This document shows positions 47,208-63,367 of a DNA stretch of 64,000 bases, piece after piece. This stretch comes from Psychroserpens burtonensis DSM 12212 (GTDB taxonomy: Bacteria; Bacteroidota; Bacteroidia; Flavobacteriales; Flavobacteriaceae), in NCBI RefSeq assembly GCF_000425305.1, contig NZ_AUDE01000012.1, positions 62,001 to 126,000 of the forward strand. Reading direction: 5' to 3'. The notes beneath the pieces were generated by a model. That model saw only the letters and a program-made list of their open reading frames with translations. It was not told the origin of the DNA and did not search any database. The position numbers and the translations under genes were made by a program. Positions within the stretch are counted from its first letter, which is position 1; every line of letters begins with the position of its first letter.

Positions 47208-48461
47208 ATGTCATATTTATTTACTTCGGAAAGTGTCTCTGAAGGCCATCCAGATAAAGTAGCAGATCAAATTAGCGATGCTTTAATTGATCATTTTTTA
47301 GCTTTTGATAGCGAATCAAAAGTAGCTTGTGAAACCTTAGTTACTACTGGTCAAGTTGTTTTGGCTGGTGAGGTAAAATCGAACGCCTATTTAGATGTTC
47401 AAAAAATTGCACGTGATACCATTAACAAAATTGGCTACACAAAAAGCGAATATATGTTTGACGGGAACTCATGTGGTGTGTTTTCGGCAATCCATGAACA
47501 ATCTGAAGATATCAATCGTGGTGTTGACAGAGCTAGTAAAGAGGAGCAAGGTGCAGGTGACCAAGGAATGATGTTTGGTTATGCAACTCGCGAAACTGAC
47601 AACTACATGCCTTTAGCATTAGACTTATCTCATAGGATTTTAAAAGAACTCGCCGATTTGAGACGAGAAAATAAAGATATTACCTATATACGTCCAGACT
47701 CTAAAAGTCAAGTAACTATTGAGTATAGTGATGATAATATACCGCAACGTATTGATGCTATAGTTGTGTCTACACAGCATGATGATTTTGATGAAGACGA
47801 AGTGATGTTAACTAAAATTAGAAAAGATATCGTTTCTATTTTAATCCCAAGAGTGGTTGCTAAATTGCCAGAGCATATTCAAGCCTTATTTAATGACCAA
47901 ATCACGTATCATATTAATCCAACAGGGAAATTTGTAATTGGAGGACCTCATGGAGATACAGGCTTAACAGGACGAAAAATTATTGTAGATACCTATGGCG
48001 GAAAAGGTGGTCATGGTGGTGGTGCTTTCTCAGGAAAAGACCCAAGTAAAGTAGATAGAAGTGCTGCTTATGCTACGAGACATATTGCAAAAAACATGGT
48101 GGCAGCCGGTATTTGTGACGAATTATTAGTTCAAGTCAGTTATGCAATTGGTGTCGTAGAACCAACGTCCATTTATGTAGATACTTATGGCACTTGTCCA
48201 TTTAATATTACAGACGGAGAGATTGCTTCAAAAATCAGAGGTATTTTTGATATGCGACCAGCAGCTATTGAAGAGCGTTTAAAATTACGCCAGCCAATGT
48301 ATAGTGAAACTGCAGCTTATGGTCACATGGGAAGAAAAAATGAAACTGTAAGCAAAACATTTTCTCAACCTAATGGAGATGATTTAACGATGGATGTAGA
48401 ATTATTTACATGGGAAAAATTGGATTATGTAGATAAGGTCAAAAAAGCGTTTGATTTATAA
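47208..48461 (+). CDS. metK: S-adenosylmethionine synthetase
   Basis: The 417-residue protein has [15 protein letters not shown] (residues about 8-22), [12 protein letters not shown] and [20 protein letters not shown]. It makes SAM from methionine and ATP. Its last 34 codons recur, diverged, at 53,141-53,242. It is divergent from metY-metX, and the SAM-responsive leader upstream closes a feedback loop. Confidence 0.97.
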
Positions 48462-48484
48462 AGATTATAAGCTATTAATATTGA

Positions 48485-48517
48485 AGCCTCTAAATTAAAT
48501 ATTTAGAGGTTTTTTTA
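48485..48517 (+). terminator. Terminator after metK
   Basis: Arms CCTCTAAAT and ATTTAGAGG with a T7 run. A similar CCTCTAAA/TTTAGAGG hairpin ends one of the DUF6705-like genes at 52,454, so this terminator may have come with the island. Confidence 0.8.
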
Positions 48518-48577
48518 TTTTTAGAGAATTTATATATGATATCCAAACCATAAATTTTAACATTTATATTCTCAAAT

Positions 48578-48595
48578 ATACGTAGATCTACGTAT
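48578..48595. promoter_or_regulatory. Perfect 18-bp palindrome upstream of the island operon
   Basis: ATACGTAGATCTACGTAT equals its own reverse complement. It abuts the TTGA of a possible -33 element (48,595-48,598), 19 bases before GACTTTTG (48,618-48,625). This is the usual place for an activator. No regulator gene is next to it. Confidence 0.6.
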
Positions 48596-48654
48596 TGACT
48601 TCTTCATAATTAAAGATGACTTTTGTTTCAACTAAATTATTAAACCTAAAATTT

Positions 48655-48747
48655 ATGAAACAAAAAGATAAACACCATTTTAGAATTGTTGTAATGCTTC
48701 TAGGAATTTTAACTTGCTTTATTAGTTGTCAAAAAGATGACTTTTAA
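48655..48747 (+). pseudogene. Detached lipoprotein signal of the JAMM-like island protein (in-frame stop)
   Basis: The frame MKQKDKHHFRIVVMLLGILT then CFISCQKDDF ends in TAA (48,745-48,747). It contains a hydrophobic segment and a lipobox Cys. It is in frame with the following 528-codon reading frame across EDLSDDIQFTLKKS, so one gene was split by a single stop codon. Confidence 0.75.
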
Positions 48748-48789
48748 GAAGATTTAAGCGATGACATACAATTTACACTTAAAAAATCG

Positions 48790-50376
48790 ATGAATGTAAA
48801 TATTAGCAACAACTTTATACTTTCAGAAAAATTAAAGACGATTACTAAGATATCAAAATTAGACAATCCTAATATGGATGCAAGAGACGTATATAACGCT
48901 CAATTTGATTTTAATGTAGATACAGATATTGCTAACTATATTGAATATGGCTCTTATCATTCTTATACTTTTCCAATTATTCGTAACATTGATAATGGTT
49001 TGATAGAAAACTTATTATTAAGTCTACAGCAGGATGACACGTACAGAGCGTTTTTAATCACTTACGATTTGACCGATAACGAAAGAGAACAAGTTCAAAA
49101 TGGTATTGAAATTGATTTAGAAGGAAAAATAACCGCATCTATACTGGACGACGAAAATTGGGTAAATGATAACTTTATTGCAAGAGATAATATTGGTGGT
49201 GATGGTTCTGGTTGTGTAGAGTTTGTAACAACCACTGGAAATTTTTGCGAAAACGAAGAAGGAGAAAAAATACGTGATAATGGCCAGTTAGGTAATGGTT
49301 GTTCTCAAAATTGGACTACCGAAACCGTAACAAACCTTGTTGTAGATGCAAATTGCCTCTCTGGTGGAGGACCTAATAATGGAACAGACAACGGGAACAA
49401 CAATGGAACAGATACAGGAACAGACTCGGATAATGGAAGTGGTGGAGGCGGTGGCTCAGGTACAGGTAATGGTGACCCAAACAATACTGACGATTGTCAA
49501 CCAACTATTGACAATCCATGTCCTGATGATATGACAGTAATTATTACTCCTAAGCCACAAAACACAAAAACTACCCATCAAAAAAATTGTGAGGAACTCA
49601 ATAAATTGACTTCTCCTCCTGCTTATAATATGCCAAATCCATTTTTGGATGATAATCATCCTGGCAATGCTAGTAGTTTAAATACAAATCCACGCCTAGC
49701 AATTCTCAACTCAGACCAATCACTAAATAATAGTGTAGAAACGGGTTTTAGTTTAAGAAATGATGGCAACTTCCCACAACATGGACCTTTTGCAAAGCAT
49801 GTTTCTGCAAATAATCAAACACATGGCGTAGACTTTCCTTTACATCCAAATCAATATGGTACTGTTCATACTCACCCCTTTAATACCACCAACAAAAAAT
49901 GGATCCCAATGTTTTCTCTTGATGATATATACTCTGTACTTCAAATACGAAACCTTTATACTTCTAGTCCATTTTTAAATAGTAATAATCCTAATGGTGA
50001 TGCTCTATTTGTATCTGTGTTGATTGCATATCAAGGAGATGCGCCTAAAACCTATGCTATTAAAGTTGATGATATTACTAAATTTCAGAATTTACAGGCT
50101 GTATATAATGATATGAACGATGCTAATGGTGACGGTATAGATGAGTACAGAGAAATGAACCAACAATTAGAAGATTTATATATAGAAAACGCAAATGATT
50201 CGTCTGGCACAGAAGCGCAGTATCAAAAGGTTTTACTTAAATTTATATCAGACCTAGATATTGGCGCATCTTTATACCAAATGGAACAAACAAATGAAGG
50301 CACTTCTCAGGTTCAAGAAACTTGGAAGAAATTAGACATAGGCCTTACTGATAATGTTATTGATTCACAATGTTAA
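48790..50376 (+). CDS. Island protein with linker and JAMM-like C-terminal motif
   Basis: The 528-residue frame starts at MNVNISNNF; the true gene probably began at 48655 before the stop at 48745. Residues about 1-190 form a beta-rich N-terminal region with paired Cys. A Gly/Asn/Thr/Asp-rich linker covers about 195-235. The C-terminal part has Glu317, HTHP at 360-363 and SLDD at 376-379, an order like the JAMM/MPN metalloprotease motif (E...HxHP...SxxD). The gap between HxH and S is 13 residues instead of the usual 7, so activity is unproven. It heads a cluster with four paralogous lipoproteins. Confidence 0.75.
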   Translation: MNVNISNNFILSEKLKTITKISKLDNPNMDARDVYNAQFDFNVDTDIANYIEYGSYHSYTFPIIRNIDNGLIENLLLSLQQDDTYRAFLITYDLTDNEREQVQNGIEIDLEGKITASILDDENWVNDNFIARDNIGGDGSGCVEFVTTTGNFCENEEGEKIRDNGQLGNGCSQNWTTETVTNLVVDANCLSGGGPNNGTDNGNNNGTDTGTDSDNGSGGGGGSGTGNGDPNNTDDCQPTIDNPCPDDMTVIITPKPQNTKTTHQKNCEELNKLTSPPAYNMPNPFLDDNHPGNASSLNTNPRLAILNSDQSLNNSVETGFSLRNDGNFPQHGPFAKHVSANNQTHGVDFPLHPNQYGTVHTHPFNTTNKKWIPMFSLDDIYSVLQIRNLYTSSPFLNSNNPNGDALFVSVLIAYQGDAPKTYAIKVDDITKFQNLQAVYNDMNDANGDGIDEYREMNQQLEDLYIENANDSSGTEAQYQKVLLKFISDLDIGASLYQMEQTNEGTSQVQETWKKLDIGLTDNVIDSQC

Positions 50377-50398
50377 ATTTTAAAAAATAATTATAATT

Positions 50399-50998
50399 AT
50401 GAAATACTTAATATATACGATACTGTTATTTATATCTATCCTTTCTTGTAAAGCTCAATCTCCAATTGTAGATATAGACGCTCCAAGGTCTAGCACAATT
50501 GATGGTGCTTATTTTAAAGACATCAATAATGAATTTAATAAGTTTACTGGAACATGGTTTTTTACTGAAGGTTCAACATCAATAACTTTTGAAATAAAAA
50601 AAGTAGAGATGATTTTTAATGGCACAGATTATGAAGACAAATTAGTTGGTGAATATAAATATGTTAGTAATGGACTGATTGTTGTTAACACTTTGGCTAA
50701 TATTTATAATCAGAATAGTGCTCAAAATAATATTAATGGAAGACGCCTTATTGAAAATGACCAATCTATAATTTGTAACGATTGCTCTCCAAATGAACGG
50801 AGAGTTGAATTGACATTTTATGATAGAGATAGATTATATTTATCTCCTTCAATTATACTAAGATATTTATTTAATGAAACTAATCCTGAGAAAATGACTG
50901 CAACATTATATCTGAAGAGCAGTTCCCTTTTGCCATATGAAGGCGCACCTACTTCACCACGTGTACCTTATGGTACTTATTTAATGGAGAAACAATAA
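50399..50998 (+). CDS. DUF6705-like lipoprotein, copy 1
   Basis: The 199-residue protein has a signal with lipobox (MKYLIYTILLFISILSCKAQ). The body has YFKDINNEFNKFTGTWFF, GEYKY, the CNDCSPNERR motif and the common end PRVPYGTYLMEKQ. It is the most diverged of four tandem paralogues and follows the JAMM-like gene by 22 bases. Function unknown. Confidence 0.85.
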   Translation: MKYLIYTILLFISILSCKAQSPIVDIDAPRSSTIDGAYFKDINNEFNKFTGTWFFTEGSTSITFEIKKVEMIFNGTDYEDKLVGEYKYVSNGLIVVNTLANIYNQNSAQNNINGRRLIENDQSIICNDCSPNERRVELTFYDRDRLYLSPSIILRYLFNETNPEKMTATLYLKSSSLLPYEGAPTSPRVPYGTYLMEKQ

Positions 50999-51011
50999 AA
51001 ATAAGATTATC

Positions 51012-51062
51012 AAAACCAACCAAAAACTAAAATACTATTTAGTTTTTGGTTGGTTTTTTTTC
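51012..51062 (+). terminator. Strong terminator after DUF6705-like copy 1
   Basis: Perfect 17-bp arms (ACCAACCAAAAACTAAA and its inverse) around ATACTA, followed by T8. It should separate the JAMM-copy 1 unit from the other copies. Confidence 0.85.
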
Positions 51063-51097
51063 TTATACAGAGCTTTTATGTTTTCTGAAATTTAATT

Positions 51098-51700
51098 ATG
51101 AAAAACTTATTTTTTACAATATCAGTATTACTTTTAGCTTTATCATGTAAAGCACAAAGCCCAGTTTTAGCTTTAGACACATATTATCACGAAATACCTG
51201 ACGGAGCATACGTCAAAGATCTAAATAACGAATTAAATAAATTTGTTGGCACATGGCTGTTTACTAATGGTACAACTTCATTTACTTTAGTTTTACAAAA
51301 ACATGAGCAAACGTTCAATGATGATTATTATCAAGACTATTTAGTTGGAGAGTATGCCTATGTAGGTAATGGGTTAACAATAGTAAATACAATACCTACC
51401 TTAAACAACACCCAACTTAGTTTGGATGATAGAAACATTGGAGGGAGATATGTAGTCAAAGGACCAGACCATAATTGTACTGACTGCTTAGCTAATGAAA
51501 GACGAATTGATTTATATTTTTCAGACCCAAATCGAGAATATCTATCTACAGGCATTGTTCTTCGTTATTTAGTCAATGAAAATAATCCAGAAAAAATTAC
51601 TTCGACTATTTATGTTGTTGGCAATGTGATGTTACCTTACGAAGGTGCTTCGTCTTCACCTAGTGTGCCTTATGGCACTTATTTGATGGAGAAACAATAA
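51098..51700 (+). CDS. DUF6705-like lipoprotein, copy 2
   Basis: The 200-residue lipoprotein (MKNLFFTISVLLLALSCKAQ) is the close sister of copy 4; the 66 bases around and after the start codon are identical. Shared motifs include YVKDLNNELNKFVGTW, GEYAYVGNGLTIVNTIP, CTDCLANERR and PSVPYGTYLMEKQ. The central part varies between copies. A weak hairpin and T-run follow. Confidence 0.85.
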   Translation: MKNLFFTISVLLLALSCKAQSPVLALDTYYHEIPDGAYVKDLNNELNKFVGTWLFTNGTTSFTLVLQKHEQTFNDDYYQDYLVGEYAYVGNGLTIVNTIPTLNNTQLSLDDRNIGGRYVVKGPDHNCTDCLANERRIDLYFSDPNREYLSTGIVLRYLVNENNPEKITSTIYVVGNVMLPYEGASSSPSVPYGTYLMEKQ

Positions 51701-51720
51701 GTAATTTATATTAATACTCT

Positions 51721-51752
51721 AAAAACCTCTAAATTTTAATTTGAAGGTTTTT
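51721..51752 (+). terminator. Weak terminator after copy 2
   Basis: AACCT and AGGTT plus AAATT/AATTT arms with a T6 run; two internal mismatches. Confidence 0.5.
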
Positions 51753-51776
51753 TGTTTTGCATAGAGTTCTTATACT
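51743..51776 (+). repeat. Direct repeat in DUF6705-like intergenic gaps, first copy
   Basis: A 29-base segment (GGTTTTTTGTTTTGCATAGA continuing to GTTCTTATA) is repeated at 52,473-52,502. Each copy joins a terminator to the start of the next paralogue, so the repeating unit of the array includes the gap. Confidence 0.7.
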
Positions 51777-51791
51777 AGTTGACATCTAATT

Positions 51792-52427
51792 ATGAAAAAC
51801 TTATTTTTTGCCATATTATTCTTACTGCTCGCATTATCATGTAAAGCGCAAAGTCCAATTTTATCTTTGGACACTTATGAACATCAGATACCAGATAATG
51901 CTTATGTTAAAGATTTAAATAACGAATTGAACAAATTTGCTGGCACATGGATTTTTAGCCAAAATAACATAACATTTACAATAACTTTACAAAAACAAGA
52001 ACAAACTTTCAATGGTGATTATTATGAAGATTATATCATTGGAGAATATGCCTATTTGATTAATACTTTAGAGATAATAAATACACTATCTTCTCTACAG
52101 GAAGCAAATGCAACGAATAATTCGCAAACTAATGAGAATATAATCGTATATTTAAATATTAGAAATATTGGTGGCAGGTATTTAGAAAACGGACAAGATT
52201 CTGGTTGTAATGATTGCTCAGAAAACGAAAGAGTTTTGGAATTATATTTAGTTGATCCAGATCGAAAGTATCTATCAACTTCATTAATTTTACGTTATTT
52301 AGTTAATGAAAATAATCCTGAAAAAATGACTGCAACAATTCGTGCAAGAACTGGAGTTGCAGTTCCTATAGATGGCTTCACCTCACCTCGTGTGCCATAT
52401 GGCACTTATTTAATGGAGAAACAATAA
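51792..52427 (+). CDS. DUF6705-like lipoprotein, copy 3
   Basis: The 211-residue lipoprotein (MKNLFFAILFLLLALSCKAQ) has a 10-15-residue insertion (around ATNNSQTNENIIVYLNI) and CNDCSENERV instead of NERR. The end is again PRVPYGTYLMEKQ. It is flanked by hairpins. Confidence 0.85.
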   Translation: MKNLFFAILFLLLALSCKAQSPILSLDTYEHQIPDNAYVKDLNNELNKFAGTWIFSQNNITFTITLQKQEQTFNGDYYEDYIIGEYAYLINTLEIINTLSSLQEANATNNSQTNENIIVYLNIRNIGGRYLENGQDSGCNDCSENERVLELYLVDPDRKYLSTSLILRYLVNENNPEKMTATIRARTGVAVPIDGFTSPRVPYGTYLMEKQ

Positions 52428-52450
52428 ATAAATATTAATTAGAAATTTCA

Positions 52451-52481
52451 AAACCTCTAAATTTTATTTTAGAGGTTTTTT
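52451..52481 (+). terminator. Terminator after copy 3
   Basis: Arms CCTCTAAA and TTTAGAGG with a T6 run, like the metK terminator. Confidence 0.7.
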
Positions 52482-52502
52482 GTTTTGCATAGAGTTCTTA
52501 TA
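52473..52502 (+). repeat. Direct repeat in DUF6705-like intergenic gaps, second copy
   Basis: This is the second copy of the 29-base gap segment described at 51,743. Confidence 0.7.
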
Positions 52503-52519
52503 TTAGTTCACATATAATT

Positions 52520-53119
52520 ATGAAAAACTTATTTTTTACAATATCAGTATTACTTTTAGCTTTATCATGTAAAGCACAAAGTCCAATAGTTCCATTAGAC
52601 ACTTATATTCACGAAATAGCAGATAATTCTTATGTAAAAGATATAGACAATGAATTAAATAAATTTATTGGCACATGGGTTTTTAGTGATGGGAATTCTT
52701 CTTTTACTTTAGTGTTACAAAAGCAAATACAAACCTTTAACGATGATTATTACGAAGATTATATGATTGGAGAATACTCATACAGCATAAATGGACTTAC
52801 AGTTGTTAATACAATCCCATTACTTAATAGTACAAATTTAAATCTGCAAAGAAATATTGGTGGTAGATATGTTGTCAAGGGAGCAGACCATAATTGTCCA
52901 GCCTGCCTACCTAACGAAAGACGAATTGACATGTATTTTTCAGATCCAAACCGAAAATATTTATCAACAGGACTAGTGTTACGTTATTTAGTTAATCAAA
53001 GTAACCCAGAAAAAATCACTGCAACCATTTACGTTGTTGGTAATGTAATGCTACCTTATGAAGGTGCTTCATCTTCACCTCGTGTCCCTTATGGTACTTA
53101 TTTAATGGAGAAGCAGTAA
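52520..53119 (+). CDS. DUF6705-like lipoprotein, copy 4
   Basis: The 199-residue lipoprotein shares the 5' 66 bases exactly with copy 2 and has CPACLPNERR and PRVPYGTYLMEKQ. It is the last gene of the island; the metK 3' fragment begins 22 bases later. Confidence 0.85.
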   Translation: MKNLFFTISVLLLALSCKAQSPIVPLDTYIHEIADNSYVKDIDNELNKFIGTWVFSDGNSSFTLVLQKQIQTFNDDYYEDYMIGEYSYSINGLTVVNTIPLLNSTNLNLQRNIGGRYVVKGADHNCPACLPNERRIDMYFSDPNRKYLSTGLVLRYLVNQSNPEKITATIYVVGNVMLPYEGASSSPRVPYGTYLMEKQ

Positions 53120-53140
53120 GTAAAATTTGGTAACCCATTA

Positions 53141-53242
53141 TTTAATCAACTTAGCTGTGAACCAATTACCCTCGAAGTAGAATTGTTTACATGGGAGAAA
53201 TTGGATTATGTGGATAAGGTGAAAGCTGCTTTTGATTTGTAA
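53141..53242 (+). pseudogene. metK: metK 3'-end fragment (right boundary of the island)
   Basis: The frame [20 protein letters not shown] then [13 protein letters not shown] and TAA lines up without gaps with the metK end at 48,360-48,461 ([33 protein letters not shown]). The last 69 bases are about 85 percent identical by eye. Only the last 34 codons are present. This is a displaced or imported metK end. Confidence 0.88.
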
Positions 53243-53483
53243 ATAAATCAAAAATCTAAACGATATAAGTAGGTTGTCTAAAAAAGACAGCCTCCTGTCA
53301 TTTTAAGGCCAGTGCAAAAAATTAAAAAATGGATTACTAGTGCATTTCGACTGCGCTCAATGTGACACACGACTCATAAATTGACTTTTTATATATCCAC
53401 TTTTAAAAAAAACACGATTCTACGCAACCTTTTAATAAAATCACCATCTTTAGTATACAACTCTATATTTAAATCAATTGTCT
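53243..53483. other. Non-coding gap after the metK fragment
   Basis: No gene is seen. A CTTCGACT-type dispersed repeat lies at 53,343-53,366. A short hairpin (GTCT...AAGAC) near 53,277-53,290 lacks a convincing T-run. The rest is AT-rich. Confidence 0.5.
53343..53366. repeat. Dispersed repeat (CTTCGACT type)
   Basis: TTTCGACTGCGCTCAATGTG followed by AC; copy of the repeat at 11,893 and 18,873. It lies about 100 bases beyond the island boundary. Confidence 0.5.
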
Positions 53484-55250
53484 ATGAAAATTTTCAAGTT
53501 CGTTTTATTAGTCTCGTTGGTATTTTGCGCAGCCTCTTGCAACAAAGATGACAGTCCTAGTAATACTCAAAATCAAGATCCGAACCCAGACCCAATAGCA
53601 TTTGCTCAAAATTTTGGGAGTGAAATTTCTAGAACATTTTTAGGCACTGTTGTAGACACTAACAATAATCCTATTGAAAATGTAATGATTAGCATTGGAA
53701 GCTCAACTGCAAGTACAGATCCAAATGGTGTATTCATAATTAATAATGCCACGGTTAACGAACGTTTTGGATATGTAAAAGCTGAAAGAGCTGGTTTCAT
53801 TCATGCATCAAGCGCAGTTGTACCAAGTGAAGGTACAAATAAGGTTCGCATTACCATGTTAGCAGAAACTAGTGCTGGCACAACCTCAAGCGGGACTCAA
53901 GAAACCATCAATTTACAAAACGGAGCATCTGTAGCTCTTGAAGGTGATTATATAAAACCAGATGGTTCCTCATACTCTGGCAGTGTGAATGTCATTATGC
54001 ACCATTTAGATCCTGCTGATGAAAATATGCAAGATCAAATGCCAGGAATGCTCTATGCTGCCAACGCTCAAAATGAAGCGCGTATGCTCCAAACGTTTGG
54101 AATGTTGGCTGTTGAGTTGAGAGGTGATAATGGTGAAGATTTGAACTTAGCTGAAGGTTCTAGCGCAGAAATCACTATGCCTTTAGATCCAAGTCTCATA
54201 GCAATTGCGCCAAGCTCCATACCGCTTTGGTATTTTGATGAAGTTAACGGGTATTGGATTGAAGATGGTGAAGCAACTTTAGTTGGGAATGCATATGTAG
54301 GAAACGTGTCTCACTTTTCATTTTGGAATTGCGATGTACCTGCTGACTATATCGATTTTTGTGTTACTGTAAATGATAGTGTAGGAAATCCACTAGCTAA
54401 CGCTTATGTTGCGTTAACTAGCAGCAATTTTGGGACAGGCTATGGTTATACCAACGAAAACGGAGAAACTTGCGGATTGGTTCCAGCCAACGAAACTTTA
54501 GAAATTAATGTCTATTCTTATGATTTGTGTGGCGGAAGTCCGATTTACACCAATACCGTTGGCCCTTTTACTGAAAATACAAGCATCAATGTTACCATCC
54601 AAGAAAACCCCGACCTTATTTCTGAAACTGTGATAGGAACTTTTAATGATTGTGATGGTAACGCGATTACAGATGGCTATGTTCGTTTAAGATATGGTAA
54701 TGAGTATTTCACAGATCTTGTTACTAATGGAGATTTTGAGATTAACCTTATTAGGTGTGATGTCGATAATACATTCACATTAAAAGCGAGTGACTATGTT
54801 AACATCCAAGAAACAGACTCTTTAAGCTATACATTTACAACGCCATTAACTAATTTAGGCACCATTCAATCTTGTAATACTATTGAGGAGTTTATCACGT
54901 ATCAAGTAAATGACCACCCTCCTATCTCCTACAACTTCAATATTCAAAGTGGACTTGACGGCAACTACCTAACCGTTTCTTATACTTCTGAAAACCAAGA
55001 AAGTTACTTCAATTTTTATATAGATGCTTTTAATGGAGCTAACACGTATACCAATGGCTATTTGAATTTCTTTGATGAGAACTTTGATAGCACCACCTTA
55101 GAATCTCAATTTATAGGAACCTCTAACGTCACTTATCTTGGCGACGTTGATAATTATATAGATATCAACTTTACGGGTGTTATTACAGATTTCAATAGCT
55201 CAGATGAGACACCAATTTCTGGGACTATGCATGTTTTAAGAGATTATTAG
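53484..55250 (+). CDS. Lipoprotein with carboxypeptidase-like regulatory domain, CILP-like
   Basis: The start MKIFKFVLLVSLVFCAASCN (53484) gives a lipobox Cys near residue 19. A CarboxypepD_reg-like beta-sandwich lies at about 50-125. It is followed by a region resembling the CILP/thrombospondin-linked fold (SVNVIMHHLDPADENMQDQM, IPLWYFDEVNGYWIEDGEA, NVSHFSFWNCD). Further Ig-like or regulatory repeats follow (residues about 290-400). No catalytic site is visible; it is probably a surface-exposed lipoprotein. Confidence 0.8.
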   Translation: MKIFKFVLLVSLVFCAASCNKDDSPSNTQNQDPNPDPIAFAQNFGSEISRTFLGTVVDTNNNPIENVMISIGSSTASTDPNGVFIINNATVNERFGYVKAERAGFIHASSAVVPSEGTNKVRITMLAETSAGTTSSGTQETINLQNGASVALEGDYIKPDGSSYSGSVNVIMHHLDPADENMQDQMPGMLYAANAQNEARMLQTFGMLAVELRGDNGEDLNLAEGSSAEITMPLDPSLIAIAPSSIPLWYFDEVNGYWIEDGEATLVGNAYVGNVSHFSFWNCDVPADYIDFCVTVNDSVGNPLANAYVALTSSNFGTGYGYTNENGETCGLVPANETLEINVYSYDLCGGSPIYTNTVGPFTENTSINVTIQENPDLISETVIGTFNDCDGNAITDGYVRLRYGNEYFTDLVTNGDFEINLIRCDVDNTFTLKASDYVNIQETDSLSYTFTTPLTNLGTIQSCNTIEEFITYQVNDHPPISYNFNIQSGLDGNYLTVSYTSENQESYFNFYIDAFNGANTYTNGYLNFFDENFDSTTLESQFIGTSNVTYLGDVDNYIDINFTGVITDFNSSDETPISGTMHVLRDY

Positions 55251-55326: not shown

Positions 55327-56184
55327 TTATCCACGTCTACCACCCATACGTTGAGATCTAAATTCTTTCATTTTCTCAACAAGCGTAGCTTGGTAATCTT
55401 TCTTATTAATTTCTTTTCCTTTATCTGGTGCCTCTATTTCAATAGTTTCTTCTGGATTGATGACCAATTTAGAACATAACATTGTGGTATCTCCTGCACT
55501 TACTTCTAAAATTAATCCTGGAAGCCCCCAATATTCTGATGGTCCATGACTCACAGGTATTTGTGGCGAATACCACGCTTCTACCTCGGTCATTGCAATT
55601 TCTGGCTCTATTGTTTCTCCAGTAGCAGTATTAGCAGCTGGAGCACTATTAGGCCAAGAAAAAGAATACCATGTCAATTCATCTGTCGGTATAGATGCTG
55701 TGGCTTTAAAACACATGTAACTTCCTATTTGCTTGCTTTCTGATCCTAATTTCCAATCTATAGGTTGTAGGCTATCTTTTACTAAAAAACGTTTGCCATA
55801 AAACTCCTGATCTTGAATTTGTGTATTGGTCTTTACATTCTTGTATTGATCTCCTGCTGCAAAGTTTTTCCCCCAAGAATCTGTTGCCCCAGACATCGCA
55901 TCTAGCTTTTCCTCTTCCGTAAAGTAAGATTCTGACTTATTAAATGTAAGCGTATATGTTTTTTCTAGTCGATTTTTTAATTGTGCCTTCATGGCCTTCT
56001 TTTGTTCTTCACTCATTCTTGCTCCCCAAGCCCCAAAGTCTATAGAAGATTTCGCCATGTAAACGGCCTGGCCTTGAAATTCTTTAGCATCTTGCGGATT
56101 GTTTGAATTGGTGCTTGTACTTGGATTAATAATCATTAATCCTATGAAAAACAAGGCTGTAAATGTGGTAAGTATAAATTTCAT
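55327..56184 (-). CDS. GLPGLI-family protein 1
   Basis: The 285-residue exported protein (signal MKFILTTFTALFFIGLMI) has the family hallmark WGLPGLILEV with CSKLVINP after it and the FTEEEKLDAM region. Its family is defined by this motif and is often found with TonB-dependent receptors. The C-terminus ends MGGRRG. A TAGATTTG promoter box lies 29 bases upstream of the start. Function unknown. Confidence 0.9.
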   Translation of the reverse strand: MKFILTTFTALFFIGLMIINPSTSTNSNNPQDAKEFQGQAVYMAKSSIDFGAWGARMSEEQKKAMKAQLKNRLEKTYTLTFNKSESYFTEEEKLDAMSGATDSWGKNFAAGDQYKNVKTNTQIQDQEFYGKRFLVKDSLQPIDWKLGSESKQIGSYMCFKATASIPTDELTWYSFSWPNSAPAANTATGETIEPEIAMTEVEAWYSPQIPVSHGPSEYWGLPGLILEVSAGDTTMLCSKLVINPEETIEIEAPDKGKEINKKDYQATLVEKMKEFRSQRMGGRRG

Positions 56185-56483: not shown

Positions 56484-59252
56484 TTACAAGGTATAGATCA
56501 CTCTAAAGGTCACAAAACGCGGTTGAATAAACGTTTCTGAATTAAATACTGAAATATTACCTGCACTGTTATTTATTCTAGCATCAACATCTAATAGGTT
56601 AGATGCTCTCACTTCATATTCCCAATTGGCATCTTTATCTTTTCTATACGCTAAACTCGCATCCCAAGTTTGAAAAGATTGTGAAGGTCTAACACCATCA
56701 GCTTGATTGGTATAGGTGAAATCTGTTCTAAAGGTTATCGATTTCCAGATATAAGCATCAAATTCAATTGAAGGTGAATTTGTTACGAATCGTGTTGACG
56801 TTGTCCCTTGATCATTACTGTTAATAGAATAATCGTATCGTATGCTCACATTTGGTGCATCTCTAAAATTTGTACGTAATTCTGGAGAATACGTTTGACT
56901 AAAGTTTTCACTTACTGTTCGTCTATTTTGAACAAATTGATTTCTTTTAAAGTAGGAGAAACGCACAGCCATTCGTGCTCTAATTTTTTTAAAAGTACGT
57001 TCTACACGTCCAAATACATTTGCAGATTCATCTGCAAAATTAGAATTAAAAAATGAACTGGTTTGAATCACATTATCAAAATTTGTTAAACTTCTAATTT
57101 GATCGATATTTTTACTATAATTCGCAATAGCAACCACATTCGTATAATTAAAAAGATTAAAACTAAAATATCTCAAACTCAAATTATGTGATAATGAATT
57201 TTGTAATTCTGCATTACCAAAGCTAATATTATTAAAACTGTTTAACACCAATCCTTCAGCCAAACTATTAACATCAGTAAAAGAGTTACTCATATTATAT
57301 CTAAACGTTAACGTCTCACTTTTTTTAAATTGAATTAATGTTTCAAATTCTGGCAAAACTCTAAAGAAATTGTCTTTAAATTCAGTTCCAAATTGCGTGT
57401 TCTTATTTCCGTAAGAGTGTAAAGATAGTCCTGGAGTAATTGTAAATTTTCCAGTTTTAAGTCTGTATTTAAATCCTAAATACACATCACTAAAGTTATA
57501 CTCAGTATCGTTTTCATTTCTCAAAAGAGTACCTTCTCCATCTGTCAATGCTGCAACTGGATCAAATACAGAACCGTTATCTAAAAACTGAAATATATTA
57601 GAATTAAATCTTTGGTTACTTAAAATGGTACCTAAGGTTATATTAATATTACTCTTATTATTTAAGATATAATAGTAATCTAATTTGGCATCTAATTGAT
57701 TCGTTTTGATACGTCTCTCTTGGTTCAGGTTATATCCAAATTGATCTCTGTCAAAACCTAAAGCTAAAGCAGTATTGTCAAAGGCGTCTGGATCATCAAG
57801 CGCATCATCTGGATTAACTGGATTGTTATTATTAGTTGGGTCATTACCTAATAGAGCATTGTAGAACGGATCCTCGTCTCTTATTAAATGCTGCGCTTCA
57901 AGTGCAAAAATATTTTTTTCATCTAGCGTGTAGTAGTAATTGAAATTTTGATTGATACTAAACGGTTTTACTTCGTTAAATTGACTGGTACTTCCAACTA
58001 CCGATGACAAGATATCCTGTCGCTCTGAATCTGAAGAAATTCTACCCAAAAGATCGTAATCTAATTGATTATTAAAGTTTGGCTTGTAAGATGCGCTTAA
58101 TTTTGCTAATCCTTGATTAGTGGCTTCTCTTCCAGTTTGCACGGTCTCTTCATCAGGAATACCCAAATCAGAATTTATATATCTCACAAAACTTTCTTCA
58201 CGAGTTCTTAAACGACTGCTATTATAAATTAAAAAGCCACTAAAGTCTAGGTTTTTTTGTGGTGCATAACTAAAGTTACCTGCACCCAATTTTGTTACAA
58301 TCTCTTGGGCATTCCCAATATTGGTTAGGCCTCCAAGACCGTTATCTCCTAAGTTAATACTTGTTCCACTCCCTTGGCTTGGACGTCTAAAACCGCCTCC
58401 AAAATTTCTAATATCTCGATTGGTCAAAGCCACTTCCCCAATATTATTCATGTCACCAATAACGTTAATACTGTATTTAGGACTGTAATAAAACAGTTTA
58501 GGTTGCACAAGGTATAAATCATCTGTATCTGCCACTCCAGCCCCTAATGTAACGTCTCCAAACCAAAAACTCTCTTTTCCTTCTTTTAGTTTGATATTAA
58601 TAGCAACATTATCTTGATTATTAGTGACACCTCTTAATTGACCAACTTCAGAATAATTTCGTAACACCTGAATTTTATCAACCGCATTTGAAGGAATATT
58701 TTTAGTCGCTAATTTTGTATCGCCATCAAAGAAATCTTTCCCATTGACCATAAGTTTATTTACGACTTTACCTTCGACTTCTATTTGTCCGTCGGCATTA
58801 ATCTCAACACCTGGCAATTTCTTGAGGACGTCTTCTAGCTTTCGTTCAGAGCCATCCTTAAATGAATCGGCATTATAGATTAATGTATCACCTTTTATGG
58901 TCACAGGCATTTCATAAGTAAGCTCTACCGCTGCCAGAGCATTGTCATTTTGGAGCGTAAAATCTTTAGTAATGTCTGCTTCTTTAGTTGAAATCGTTTG
59001 AGAAACGGTTTTCATTCCAATATAACTCACTTGTACGGTATACGTTGTGTTTTTGTCTAAATTGAGTTTAAAAAAACCCTTTTCATTGGTAATGGCATAC
59101 GATGCCATCGCTTTGGTTTCTTTATTGATAGCAATTACGTTTGCCAATTCTAAAGGTGCTCCAATACTATCTTTCACGACACCTTTTGCGGTAACTTGAG
59201 CACTAGAAACGCCTGCTATTAAAAGCATTAAAACAACTAATAATTTTTTCAT
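56484..59252 (-). CDS. TonB-dependent-receptor-like outer-membrane protein
   Basis: The 922-residue protein has a signal peptide (MKKLLVVLMLLIAGVSSAQ), a CarboxypepD_reg-like domain (about 20-100), a plug-like part with LEDVLKKLPGVEINADGQIE (about 140-160), and a long beta-barrel C-terminal region (outer-membrane protein beta-barrel family). It is flanked by GLPGLI genes on both sides, a common pairing. Substrate is not known. Confidence 0.88.
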   Translation of the reverse strand: MKKLLVVLMLLIAGVSSAQVTAKGVVKDSIGAPLELANVIAINKETKAMASYAITNEKGFFKLNLDKNTTYTVQVSYIGMKTVSQTISTKEADITKDFTLQNDNALAAVELTYEMPVTIKGDTLIYNADSFKDGSERKLEDVLKKLPGVEINADGQIEVEGKVVNKLMVNGKDFFDGDTKLATKNIPSNAVDKIQVLRNYSEVGQLRGVTNNQDNVAINIKLKEGKESFWFGDVTLGAGVADTDDLYLVQPKLFYYSPKYSINVIGDMNNIGEVALTNRDIRNFGGGFRRPSQGSGTSINLGDNGLGGLTNIGNAQEIVTKLGAGNFSYAPQKNLDFSGFLIYNSSRLRTREESFVRYINSDLGIPDEETVQTGREATNQGLAKLSASYKPNFNNQLDYDLLGRISSDSERQDILSSVVGSTSQFNEVKPFSINQNFNYYYTLDEKNIFALEAQHLIRDEDPFYNALLGNDPTNNNNPVNPDDALDDPDAFDNTALALGFDRDQFGYNLNQERRIKTNQLDAKLDYYYILNNKSNINITLGTILSNQRFNSNIFQFLDNGSVFDPVAALTDGEGTLLRNENDTEYNFSDVYLGFKYRLKTGKFTITPGLSLHSYGNKNTQFGTEFKDNFFRVLPEFETLIQFKKSETLTFRYNMSNSFTDVNSLAEGLVLNSFNNISFGNAELQNSLSHNLSLRYFSFNLFNYTNVVAIANYSKNIDQIRSLTNFDNVIQTSSFFNSNFADESANVFGRVERTFKKIRARMAVRFSYFKRNQFVQNRRTVSENFSQTYSPELRTNFRDAPNVSIRYDYSINSNDQGTTSTRFVTNSPSIEFDAYIWKSITFRTDFTYTNQADGVRPSQSFQTWDASLAYRKDKDANWEYEVRASNLLDVDARINNSAGNISVFNSETFIQPRFVTFRVIYTL

Positions 59253-61804: not shown

Positions 61805-63367
61805 ATGAACGATACTAAATACAGATCTATACTATATGTTATTGTCATTGTAATACTGTCTACAATAGGGATTCAAGCCTACTGGAATTACAAAAACTAT
61901 TTATCTAGTAAACAGCAACTTGTCAATGATGTACAAACAAGTTTAGATAAAGCGGTGGATGACTATTATGCTAATTTGGCCGAAAATAGCACCATTGGTT
62001 TTAGCTTTCAAGGTATGAATCAAAAAGACTTCCTTAAGAATGGTAGATTTGATAGTATCATGAGCTCTATCACTGAATCTGACACCGATGGGTTTAGTGG
62101 TATTGATTCTATTAACCCAAGTTTATTGAATGGTGTTTCTGTAGTTAAAGGACCAAAGGCTGACTCTATTATTAGTCAAATGCAATTAAACGCTACTGTC
62201 GATTTTAAGGATTCGCCTTCAAATCGTATTACAAATATTAATGTAGATACGCTTTCCATAGCTTCTACAAATAAAGACACCCTATTTTCAGATAAAAGTT
62301 TAAGACAGTTTACATCTAAGATTATAATATCGATGAAAACAGATTCTTTATCGCTAAAAGGCATTGATACGTTATTACAATCTGAACTTCTCAGAAAGGA
62401 TATAGGTATTAATTATACGATCAAATATAAAGATCCTTCAACCGATATTGATTATTATAACGCGGTTGAAAAAGACATAGAATTTATAGATTCGGTTCAA
62501 TTAAAATCATTTTTAAGCACCTCTTCTAAATCGGCATTACTACCCAAAAACAGTGAATTAAGCATCTTATTTAATACTATTTCAAATGATGTCTTCAAAC
62601 GCATCATTTGGGGAATCGTCATTTCAACACTTTTAGTTTTATCTGTCATTAGTTGTCTTTTCTATCTTTTACAGATAATAAAACGTCAAAAACAACTAGC
62701 AGAAGTTAAAAATGATCTTATTAGTAATATTACGCATGAGTTCAAAACACCTATTGCTACTATTGGTGTTGCTTTGGAGAGTCTTCAGAATTTCAATATG
62801 ATTGACAACAAAGAGAAAGCGAAAACCTATTTAGAGATGTCAAGATCTCAATTATCAAAATTAAATACTATGGTTGAAAAGTTGTTGGAGACTGCTTCTC
62901 TAAATAGTGATAATTTAGAACTCAATTTTGATACTTATAATATTTCCGAAGTGATTACCACAATCACAGAGAAACATAAATTTAATGATCAAAAAAAAAT
63001 GATATCTCATGACATTGAAGCTGCTGTTTTTGCACATGTAGATATTTTTCATTTTGAAAATGCCATTAATAATATTCTTGATAATGCTTGTAAATATGGT
63101 GGCAACACCATACATATTATTCTAAAACAGACTGTGAATCATATAGACATCTCAATTTCTGATAACGGATCATCGTTAACAAAGGTAGACAAAGACCGAA
63201 TTTTCGAAAAGTTTTATCGTGTACCAAAAGGAAACACGCATGACGTTAAAGGGTTTGGAATTGGCTTGTATTATGCTAATGAAATTATTAAAAAGCACAA
63301 TGGATCGATTGATCTTGATCTCAAAAAACAACTAACAACTTTTAAAATCCAACTGTCAAATGTCTAA
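61805..63367 (+). CDS. Sensor histidine kinase
   Basis: The start MNDTKYRSILYVIVIVILST (61805) gives a first membrane segment at about 8-26; an upstream open frame of 19 codons is ignored. A periplasmic domain spans about 27-265, then a second membrane segment (IIWGIVISTLLVLSVISCLF). The H-box is SNITHEFKTPIATIG, the N-box NAINNILDNACKYGG and the G-box FGIGLYYANEI. It overlaps the response regulator start by eight bases. Confidence 0.93.
   Translation: MNDTKYRSILYVIVIVILSTIGIQAYWNYKNYLSSKQQLVNDVQTSLDKAVDDYYANLAENSTIGFSFQGMNQKDFLKNGRFDSIMSSITESDTDGFSGIDSINPSLLNGVSVVKGPKADSIISQMQLNATVDFKDSPSNRITNINVDTLSIASTNKDTLFSDKSLRQFTSKIIISMKTDSLSLKGIDTLLQSELLRKDIGINYTIKYKDPSTDIDYYNAVEKDIEFIDSVQLKSFLSTSSKSALLPKNSELSILFNTISNDVFKRIIWGIVISTLLVLSVISCLFYLLQIIKRQKQLAEVKNDLISNITHEFKTPIATIGVALESLQNFNMIDNKEKAKTYLEMSRSQLSKLNTMVEKLLETASLNSDNLELNFDTYNISEVITTITEKHKFNDQKKMISHDIEAAVFAHVDIFHFENAINNILDNACKYGGNTIHIILKQTVNHIDISISDNGSSLTKVDKDRIFEKFYRVPKGNTHDVKGFGIGLYYANEIIKKHNGSIDLDLKKQLTTFKIQLSNV

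Follow-up and report, generated by a model that had tools for sequence, protein, structure and literature searches.

How does a small cluster of genes in which no recombinase is found come to lie directly behind a housekeeping gene, with a second copy of that gene's 3′ end stranded on its far side? The question is raised by metK, the methionine adenosyltransferase gene, in Psychroserpens burtonensis DSM 12212 (NCBI RefSeq assembly GCF_000425305.1). The window analysed here is a stretch of 64,000 nucleotides (nt) of contig NZ_AUDE01000012.1 (forward strand, positions 62,001 to 126,000), to which all coordinates without a locus handle refer. Between metK and its stranded tail lies a cluster coding for a JAMM-like lipoprotein and four DUF6705 lipoproteins. 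In the genus, the site behind metK holds extra genes with differing cargo, relics of metK tails or of the metK terminator stand beside or between cargo genes, and no recombinase gene was found. We lean, if only slightly, towards the view that small gene modules land at the metK 3′ junction in this genus, by metK-anchored recombination with one illegitimate junction; several homology-anchored landings are more likely than one integrase element. How small modules lacking integrase or transposase cross species is a standing question, and in the present case the landing mark seems to be a housekeeping gene.

A second metK 3′ end beyond the insert

The features on which the argument depends are the following.

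47208-48461, + strand: metK, intact methionine adenosyltransferase gene, the anchor gene (TIGR01034, 507.9 bits)
48360-48461, + strand: metK 3′ end, last 34 codons, left copy
53141-53242, + strand: stranded 34-codon tail of metK, foreign-like as far as about nt 45 and sister-species-like from about nt 57

A first-pass annotation of this locus had claimed that the last 34 codons of metK recur in frame after the final gene of the cluster, and this is confirmed. The stranded tail begins 22 nt past that gene (52520-53119) and aligns with the left copy without gaps, with 76/102 nt and 23/33 residues (69.7%) identical. A 40-amino-acid (aa) metK-tail query against the window's own genome (G000, 3.98 Mb) matched only metK (E 5e-23) and the stranded copy (E 7.7e-11), so that the latter is not a chance resemblance. 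The similarity is uneven along the tail: identity to the resident metK is 86% over its last 69 nt and only 56% over nt 1-39. These 39 nt nevertheless match the best other species at 29 positions, which exceeds the maximum of 23 reached in 20,000 shuffles; the homology therefore extends to codon 1, and chance is ruled out here as well. Judged by these identities, nt 1-39 are not a plain copy of the own genome's metK. Over the last 21 codons before the stop, seven codons differ between the stranded copy and metK, six of them silently, a pattern as of a tail diverging inside a working metK.

Full-length metK is single-copy in all 23 genomes of our genus sample, whereas a second metK end was found only in G000. 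The other 22 genomes, all but one of them without the cluster, have no second metK end. Neither of the two outcomes that the first-pass annotation had named as fatal to an insertion was seen within the genus. A lax tblastn search (E up to 1) of the stretches downstream of metK in these 22 genomes and in 11 others (mostly about 18 kb, about 4 kb for G013) revealed no other second tail. In the 80 named metK loci (up to 10 kb on each side) we found one tail each, without any DUF6705 or JAMM match; the closest named metK records among the matches listed are from Flavobacteriaceae, at 87-89%, in a scan that may omit the own and very near genomes. One tail-like match in 60 family stretches (E 0.29, 16 residues) was dismissed.

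The metK 3′ site is an insertion hotspot in the genus

The interval between metK and the conserved downstream genes was compared in the 23 genomes by counting open reading frames (ORFs) of at least 60 aa. Fifteen genomes carry nothing extra, metK being followed at once by a homologue of one of the window's right neighbours (a CarboxypepD_reg lipoprotein, Porph_ging or TonB-like gene). The remaining eight carry extra genes of several kinds. JAMM plus DUF6705 cargo is present in G000 and G009, and a MoxR-vWA-beta-propeller cassette in G018 (L037:10742-18526), G015 (L051) and G008 (L061). A gene of 264-270 aa occurs in G018, G015, G009 and G011, a 173-aa gene partly like the right neighbour in G007, and a peptidase M28 gene in G020. 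An empty and an occupied form of the site can be paired: G018 and G015 read metK, terminator element T (described below), 266/270-aa gene, whereas G009 reads metK, T, JAMM gene, DUF6705 gene, T, 264-aa gene. The metK 3′ site is thus an insertion hotspot where the same point receives different cargo. This supports the earlier proposals that the cluster inserted at the metK 3′ end and that relatives would show the same insertion point with other genes. The open-licence literature yielded nothing relevant on metK as an insertion hotspot, or on metK together with an integrase, attB or a genomic island.

Four genes of the G018 cassette match the profiles bpX4, bpMoxR, bpX2 and bpX3, and one G008 gene matches both bpX0 and bpX1, the scan having covered the cassettes of these two genomes. 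Among 12 genomes searched, close MoxR homologues were found only in G018, G015 and G008, each time right after metK. MoxR-vWA-beta-propeller ternary systems are presented as predicted conflict systems without a conventional effector (PMC7159879). They are absent from the window and form an alternative cargo in these three genomes, so the same site also accepts a predicted conflict system. Outside the cassette, the relatives of this MoxR gene in the same three genomes are all distant.

The stranded tail looks like a mosaic

Comparison with the metK tails of relatives suggests that the stranded tail combines a foreign-like 5′ part with a 3′ part nearest a sister species. Its nt 40-99 share 97% identity with the metK tail of the sister species G018, against 87% for the resident metK tail, while nt 1-39 share 59% with G018 and 72-74% with G013, G011 and G019. 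Maximum chi-square tests with permuted sites, comparing each of 19 outside species with G018, gave p values from 0.0004 to 0.19, below 0.05 in 13 cases. The resident metK is clade-like over its full length. Its tail carries 6 private changes, a number reached in 143 of 396 windows, and is therefore no outlier; a clade-affinity comparison with just two outside species agrees. The question of which tail matches the host lineage, left by the first-pass annotation to a tree, thus receives a divided answer: the resident metK belongs to its clade throughout, the 3′ part of the fragment is closer to the sister species than the resident tail is, and on these affinities neither copy is simply 'host'.

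No donor of the whole fragment was found in a family sample of 397 genomes (378 of which gave any metK-tail match, and which includes only two other members of the window's genus); the best local match was 86-87% over about 70 nt and the best over 102 nt 77%. The best match genus-wide over 99 nt is G018, at 82%.

A second stranded tail in another genus

Besides G000, two family genomes gave two tail matches. The second match of G061 (34% identity, with stops) was set aside. G307, from another genus, has an intact metK on contig C52 (compared segment L267:4036-4153) and a stranded tail on C54 (L266:1888-2005), followed by TonB-like and Porph_ging genes, the same kinds as in the window's genus. 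Its two tails share 82 identical nt, running from the Phe-Thr-Trp codons through the stop codon and 22 nt past it; the 36 nt before match at 31 positions (5 differ), and homology then ends. In the window tail and the G307 tail alike, affinity switches at the Phe-Thr-Trp codons, foreign-like before and host-like after. The sequences to the left of the two relics are unrelated (p 0.23). With regard to the link between fragment and metK, on which the first-pass reading depended, the window's own genome has no copy elsewhere, and in G307 the tail and metK lie on different contigs.

Terminator relics between the DUF6705 genes

Five main ORFs, plus a few small overlapping ones, occupy the insert of 4.7 kb. 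Its GC content is 30.7%, against 33.4% for the window; of 238 sliding stretches equally long, just one reaches so low a value, and it may itself overlap the insert. The insert and its right border read as follows.

48462-48654: spacer with the metK terminator (weaker T-like) and the region upstream of the JAMM gene, from local alignment
48579-48594: perfect 16-nt palindrome upstream of the JAMM gene
48655-48747, + strand: ORF with the lipoprotein signal peptide of the JAMM protein, in-frame TAA at its end, from translation
48790-50376, + strand: JAMM-like protein body, 528 aa, in the signal-peptide frame but past the stop; HTHP motif at 49867-49878
50399-50998, + strand: D1, DUF6705 lipoprotein (PF20448, 137.6 bits)
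51098-51700, + strand: D2, DUF6705 lipoprotein (PF20448, 136.7 bits)
51701-51791: D2-D3 spacer with T (match 51743-51774)
51792-52427, + strand: D3, DUF6705 lipoprotein (PF20448, 124.4 bits)
52428-52519: D3-D4 spacer with T (match 52471-52502)
52520-53119, + strand: D4, DUF6705 lipoprotein (PF20448, 132.9 bits)
53243-53477: spacer past the stranded tail, containing a short sequence found again elsewhere in the genome
53478-55250, + strand: conserved right neighbour, CarboxypepD_reg lipoprotein gene

T designates the sequence found 3′ of metK in this clade, that is the terminator plus about 20 nt. A 32-nt T pattern, run with up to 3 mismatches over the 23 whole genus genomes, gave five matches, all at the metK locus: after D2 and after D3 in the window, after the DUF6705 gene in G009, and after metK in G018 and G015. 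T thus stands in two of the three spacers between D genes, a pointer to several landings. Versions of T that can be aligned, yet that the pattern does not capture, stand in the resident metK spacers of G000, G009 and G006. In the window, 48462-48654 aligns with the metK spacers of four relatives at z 6.6 to 9.6, although in one of the four (G006) the best shuffle scored higher. The palindrome within this spacer has a related sequence, read by eye, upstream of the G009 homologue, and the sequence surrounding it matches contig C9 of the own genome at two places.

The DUF6705 genes themselves were compared by nucleotide identity and in a tree of 21 proteins. D1-D4 group with the G009 gene at the metK locus (96/98), apart from the other DUF6705 genes of the same genome. 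Within this group D2, D4 and the G009 gene form a set whose inner order is unsettled, with D1 and D3 lying outside it. Both D2 and D4 come closer to the G009 gene (80.7% and 82.9% identity, respectively) than to one another (79.0%), which, on the reasoning applied to the Vibrio arrays discussed below (PMC5361080), argues against plain duplication.

Searches for a recombinase

The absence of an integrase from the cluster, noted in the first-pass annotation, extends to all cargo examined. Pfam searches revealed no integrase among the insert's genes, in the cargo of relatives (the G009 JAMM protein, the G009 264-aa gene, one G008 gene and eight further cargo proteins), or in the readable ends of the incompletely assembled G307 insert, which breaks off at the edges of contigs C52 and C54. 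A crude integrase motif run over the ORFs of 34 stretches matched once, in an 853-aa MoxR-cassette protein of G018 whose G008 homologue is the bpX0/bpX1 gene. In 60 family genomes the same motif was absent from the three ORFs that follow metK, and among the Pfam families listed (25 of 60) for 57 of 119 such ORFs there was no recombinase. No tRNA or tmRNA gene was found in the window.

Mobile DNA was searched as well. Phages gave no match to the metK tail or to D2, and plasmids none to the JAMM body, these being the pairings searched for the cargo. Matches in four Bacteroidales plasmid records cover 98-100% of the 40-aa tail query (two annotated as metK, one without annotation, one without a feature there). 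Ten stretches on viral contigs match it, all of them long metK genes in which 370 or more of 417 residues align. Stranded metK tails were therefore found in none of the phages, plasmids or viral contigs, with the limit that match lengths within the plasmid genes were not checked.

Exchange in the right flank

Quick neighbourhood trees (18 to 27 rows each, support given by the Shimodaira-Hasegawa-like approximate likelihood ratio test, SH-aLRT) assign metK and the window's 55327-56184 to the clade formed by G018, G015, G009 and G006. The right neighbour (53478-55250) groups instead with G018, G010, G008 and G013 (99% SH-aLRT), not with G009 or G006. The TonB-like outer membrane protein gene at 56484-59252 groups with G012 (99% SH-aLRT), outside the metK clade; homologous exchange is therefore active here and reaches into the flank.

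How modules may land behind metK

In the mechanism that we favour, DNA arriving from a related species would recombine homologously within metK on one side and be joined illegitimately on the other, so that the module is placed directly behind metK. Each landing would push the previous metK 3′ junction downstream. A junction inside the terminator would strand a terminator copy, as may have happened in the DUF6705 spacers and in G009, and one inside the coding end would strand a metK tail, as at 53141-53242 and in G307. DUF6705 partners would accumulate as the effector is replaced or broken. This accounts well for G307, where the host would have supplied both copies of the 82 nt and the donor the foreign-like 36 nt. 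One homologous and one illegitimate junction could indeed leave an identical 82 nt behind a foreign-like segment, and the same two-junction model fits the presence of T on both sides of the G009 insert. In its favour, too, the stranded tail lies 235 nt from the right neighbour, much as metK does from the same gene in G006 (217 nt), where nothing is inserted. The stranded tail and terminators would then form a readable record of past landings, which makes this mechanism testable by strain comparison.

Homology-facilitated illegitimate recombination has been described for three species with natural competence, and there is a report of it in E. coli conjugation (PMC3240628). The same process has been proposed for the immunity-gene arrays of the Vibrio type VI secretion system (T6SS), where modules enter behind a conserved anchor, older partners are displaced along with a 3′ end, and there is no evidence of an integrase (PMC5361080, 2017). 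The metK locus shares with those arrays a conserved upstream anchor, a new module behind it, a stranded 3′ end or old junctions, the lack of a detected integrase, and array members (D2 and D4) that are not each other's closest relatives. It differs in that the anchor is the housekeeping gene metK, outside any secretion system, that different modules share the site, that what is left stranded comes from the anchor itself (its tail and terminator), and that immunity is putative.

Several observations weigh against this mechanism. With an illegitimate junction placed at random, one would not expect the relics of two genera, G000 and G307, to start no more than 9 nt apart and to change affinity at identical codons. 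Few genomes have a stranded tail (one of the 23 genus genomes; G000 and G307 among the 397 of the family). A foreign stretch was sought in the resident metK and none was found, so the homologous junction itself is not seen. The mosaic tests, with 15 to 26 informative sites apiece, overlap in their sites and lack independence, and p does not fall below 0.05 in 6 of 19. Likeness to T is only weak in the D1-D2 spacer (z 1.4 to 5.5). The spacer at 53243-53477 is unlike the clade's metK terminator spacers (z -1.4 to 0.6); the right flank of the stranded tail is therefore not plainly an old metK flank, and this spacer is not well explained by landings of this kind or by an integrative element. Finally, the effector-partner role of the cargo is a prediction from sequence.

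The first-pass annotation had pictured a single element that carried or displaced a metK tail. As stated, this is not supported, given the mosaic tail and the T copies that point to several landings. A site-specific integrative element at the metK 3′ end, restoring the tail with its own copy and later losing its integrase, is nonetheless a serious rival because of the shared relic boundaries, even if we regard it as unlikely. Its precedent is e14 in the E. coli icd gene, for which a 165-bp tail copy (icdC) with 12 changed nt beyond the insert and a putative integrase gene, intE, are described (PMC11148124). On that description the anatomy is the same: an intact gene on the left, an insert, and a diverged in-frame 3′-end copy on the right. 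A right copy with a foreign-like 5′ and a native-like 3′ part would also be one part of the reciprocal pattern of such an event. The locus departs from e14 in having no detected integrase, in the window, in relatives or at the readable G307 ends, and in an insert made up of 4.7 kb of other genes. In the sister species with the same kind of cargo, G009, the right-hand repeat sits past the stop codon and not in the tail; the crossover may therefore not be fixed. The 3′ parts of the G307 tails are identical, whereas a foreign attP arm should differ, the sequences left of the two relics are unrelated, and metK tails are missing from phages, with only long metK genes on viral contigs.

If whole alleles were exchanged between a relative with the cassette and one without it, and an imprecise joint at the D4 end stranded the tail, this would account for the right side of the insert. 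The stretch from fragment to right neighbour (235 nt) resembles the uninserted metK junction (217 nt from metK to the same gene in G006), and the grouping of the right neighbour with G013 and others recalls that of the 5′ part of the fragment, nearest G013, G011 and G019. This explanation is at odds with the affinity of the fragment's nt 40-99, to which G018, a member of the resident clade, comes nearest, and with the clade-like 55327-56184; the TTTAATCAA-like microhomology at the D4 end that it invokes rests on reading by eye. We consider it quite improbable. Still less credible is a local rearrangement, which would start from a tandem duplication of metK or of its 3′ part, with the cluster arising or moving in between and the second copy decaying to a tail. 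The fragment is in frame with the same stop and the DUF6705 copies are in tandem, as such an origin would have it; yet nt 1-39 resemble other species better than the own metK, the conserved part differs mostly silently, there is no other trace of a second metK, and D2 and D4 do not group together against the G009 gene.

A bolder version of the landing mechanism, which we hold to be rather doubtful, is that the modules are mobile without a recombinase of their own, carrying a piece of metK (about 32-34 codons) or its terminator as a homology arm that fits the metK of any relative. Re-mixing of the arm with the host tail at each landing would then produce the mosaic whose switch point is common to both genera, and the route would serve a new family of surface effectors and partners, the JAMM lipoprotein and DUF6705.

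Predicted nature of the cargo

The JAMM-like lipoprotein and DUF6705, both without known function, are linked here as a likely functional pair, and we infer an effector-partner module in which DUF6705 proteins may provide immunity. An HxH metal motif with S-x2-D downstream is the signature of JAMM/MPN metallopeptidases. When the C-terminal part of the 528-aa protein was aligned with eight others, both HxH histidines were invariant in all nine; by eye, Ser and Asp of the downstream motif are present in seven, including the window's, with Thr for Ser in one and the motif absent from one. The body of the protein has no NCBIfam family and only one sub-threshold Pfam match (E 0.15). Its structural model has a predicted local distance difference test (pLDDT) score of 65.9, and Prp8 Jab1/MPN domains and an Rpn11 homologue are frequent among the matches, at E about 0.05 or worse and beside unrelated chains. 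The DUF6705 model (pLDDT 86.1) is beta-rich; its best structural matches are small beta-barrels, none significant. The D1-D4 scores lie well above the Pfam gathering cut-off for DUF6705 (PF20448), which is 24.4 bits. The open-licence literature held nothing on DUF6705, or on orphan immunity in Bacteroidetes or polymorphic toxins of flavobacteria. A weak PADLOC match on D4 (E 0.007), the sole match to a defence family, was judged noise.

All nine JAMM-like genes directly precede a DUF6705 gene, a count biased towards adjacency, since five of the nine were found through DUF6705 neighbourhoods. The 528-aa protein has six other matches in the genus: the three with a JAMM-like end (G009 at metK, G016 and G004) adjoin DUF6705, and the three that match in the front part only (G015, C2 of G009, and G008) have no DUF6705 neighbour. 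DUF6705 genes also occur without a JAMM neighbour, for instance four in a row in G008. In G009 the JAMM protein is encoded in a single unbroken frame, signal peptide included. In the window, the stop at the joint of signal peptide and body (48655-48790) may have left the effector inactive while four DUF6705 partners persist. Two more sets of JAMM lipoprotein and DUF6705 genes, one of them with an interrupted DUF6705 copy, are present on contig C1 of the own genome (L241:3737-13448).

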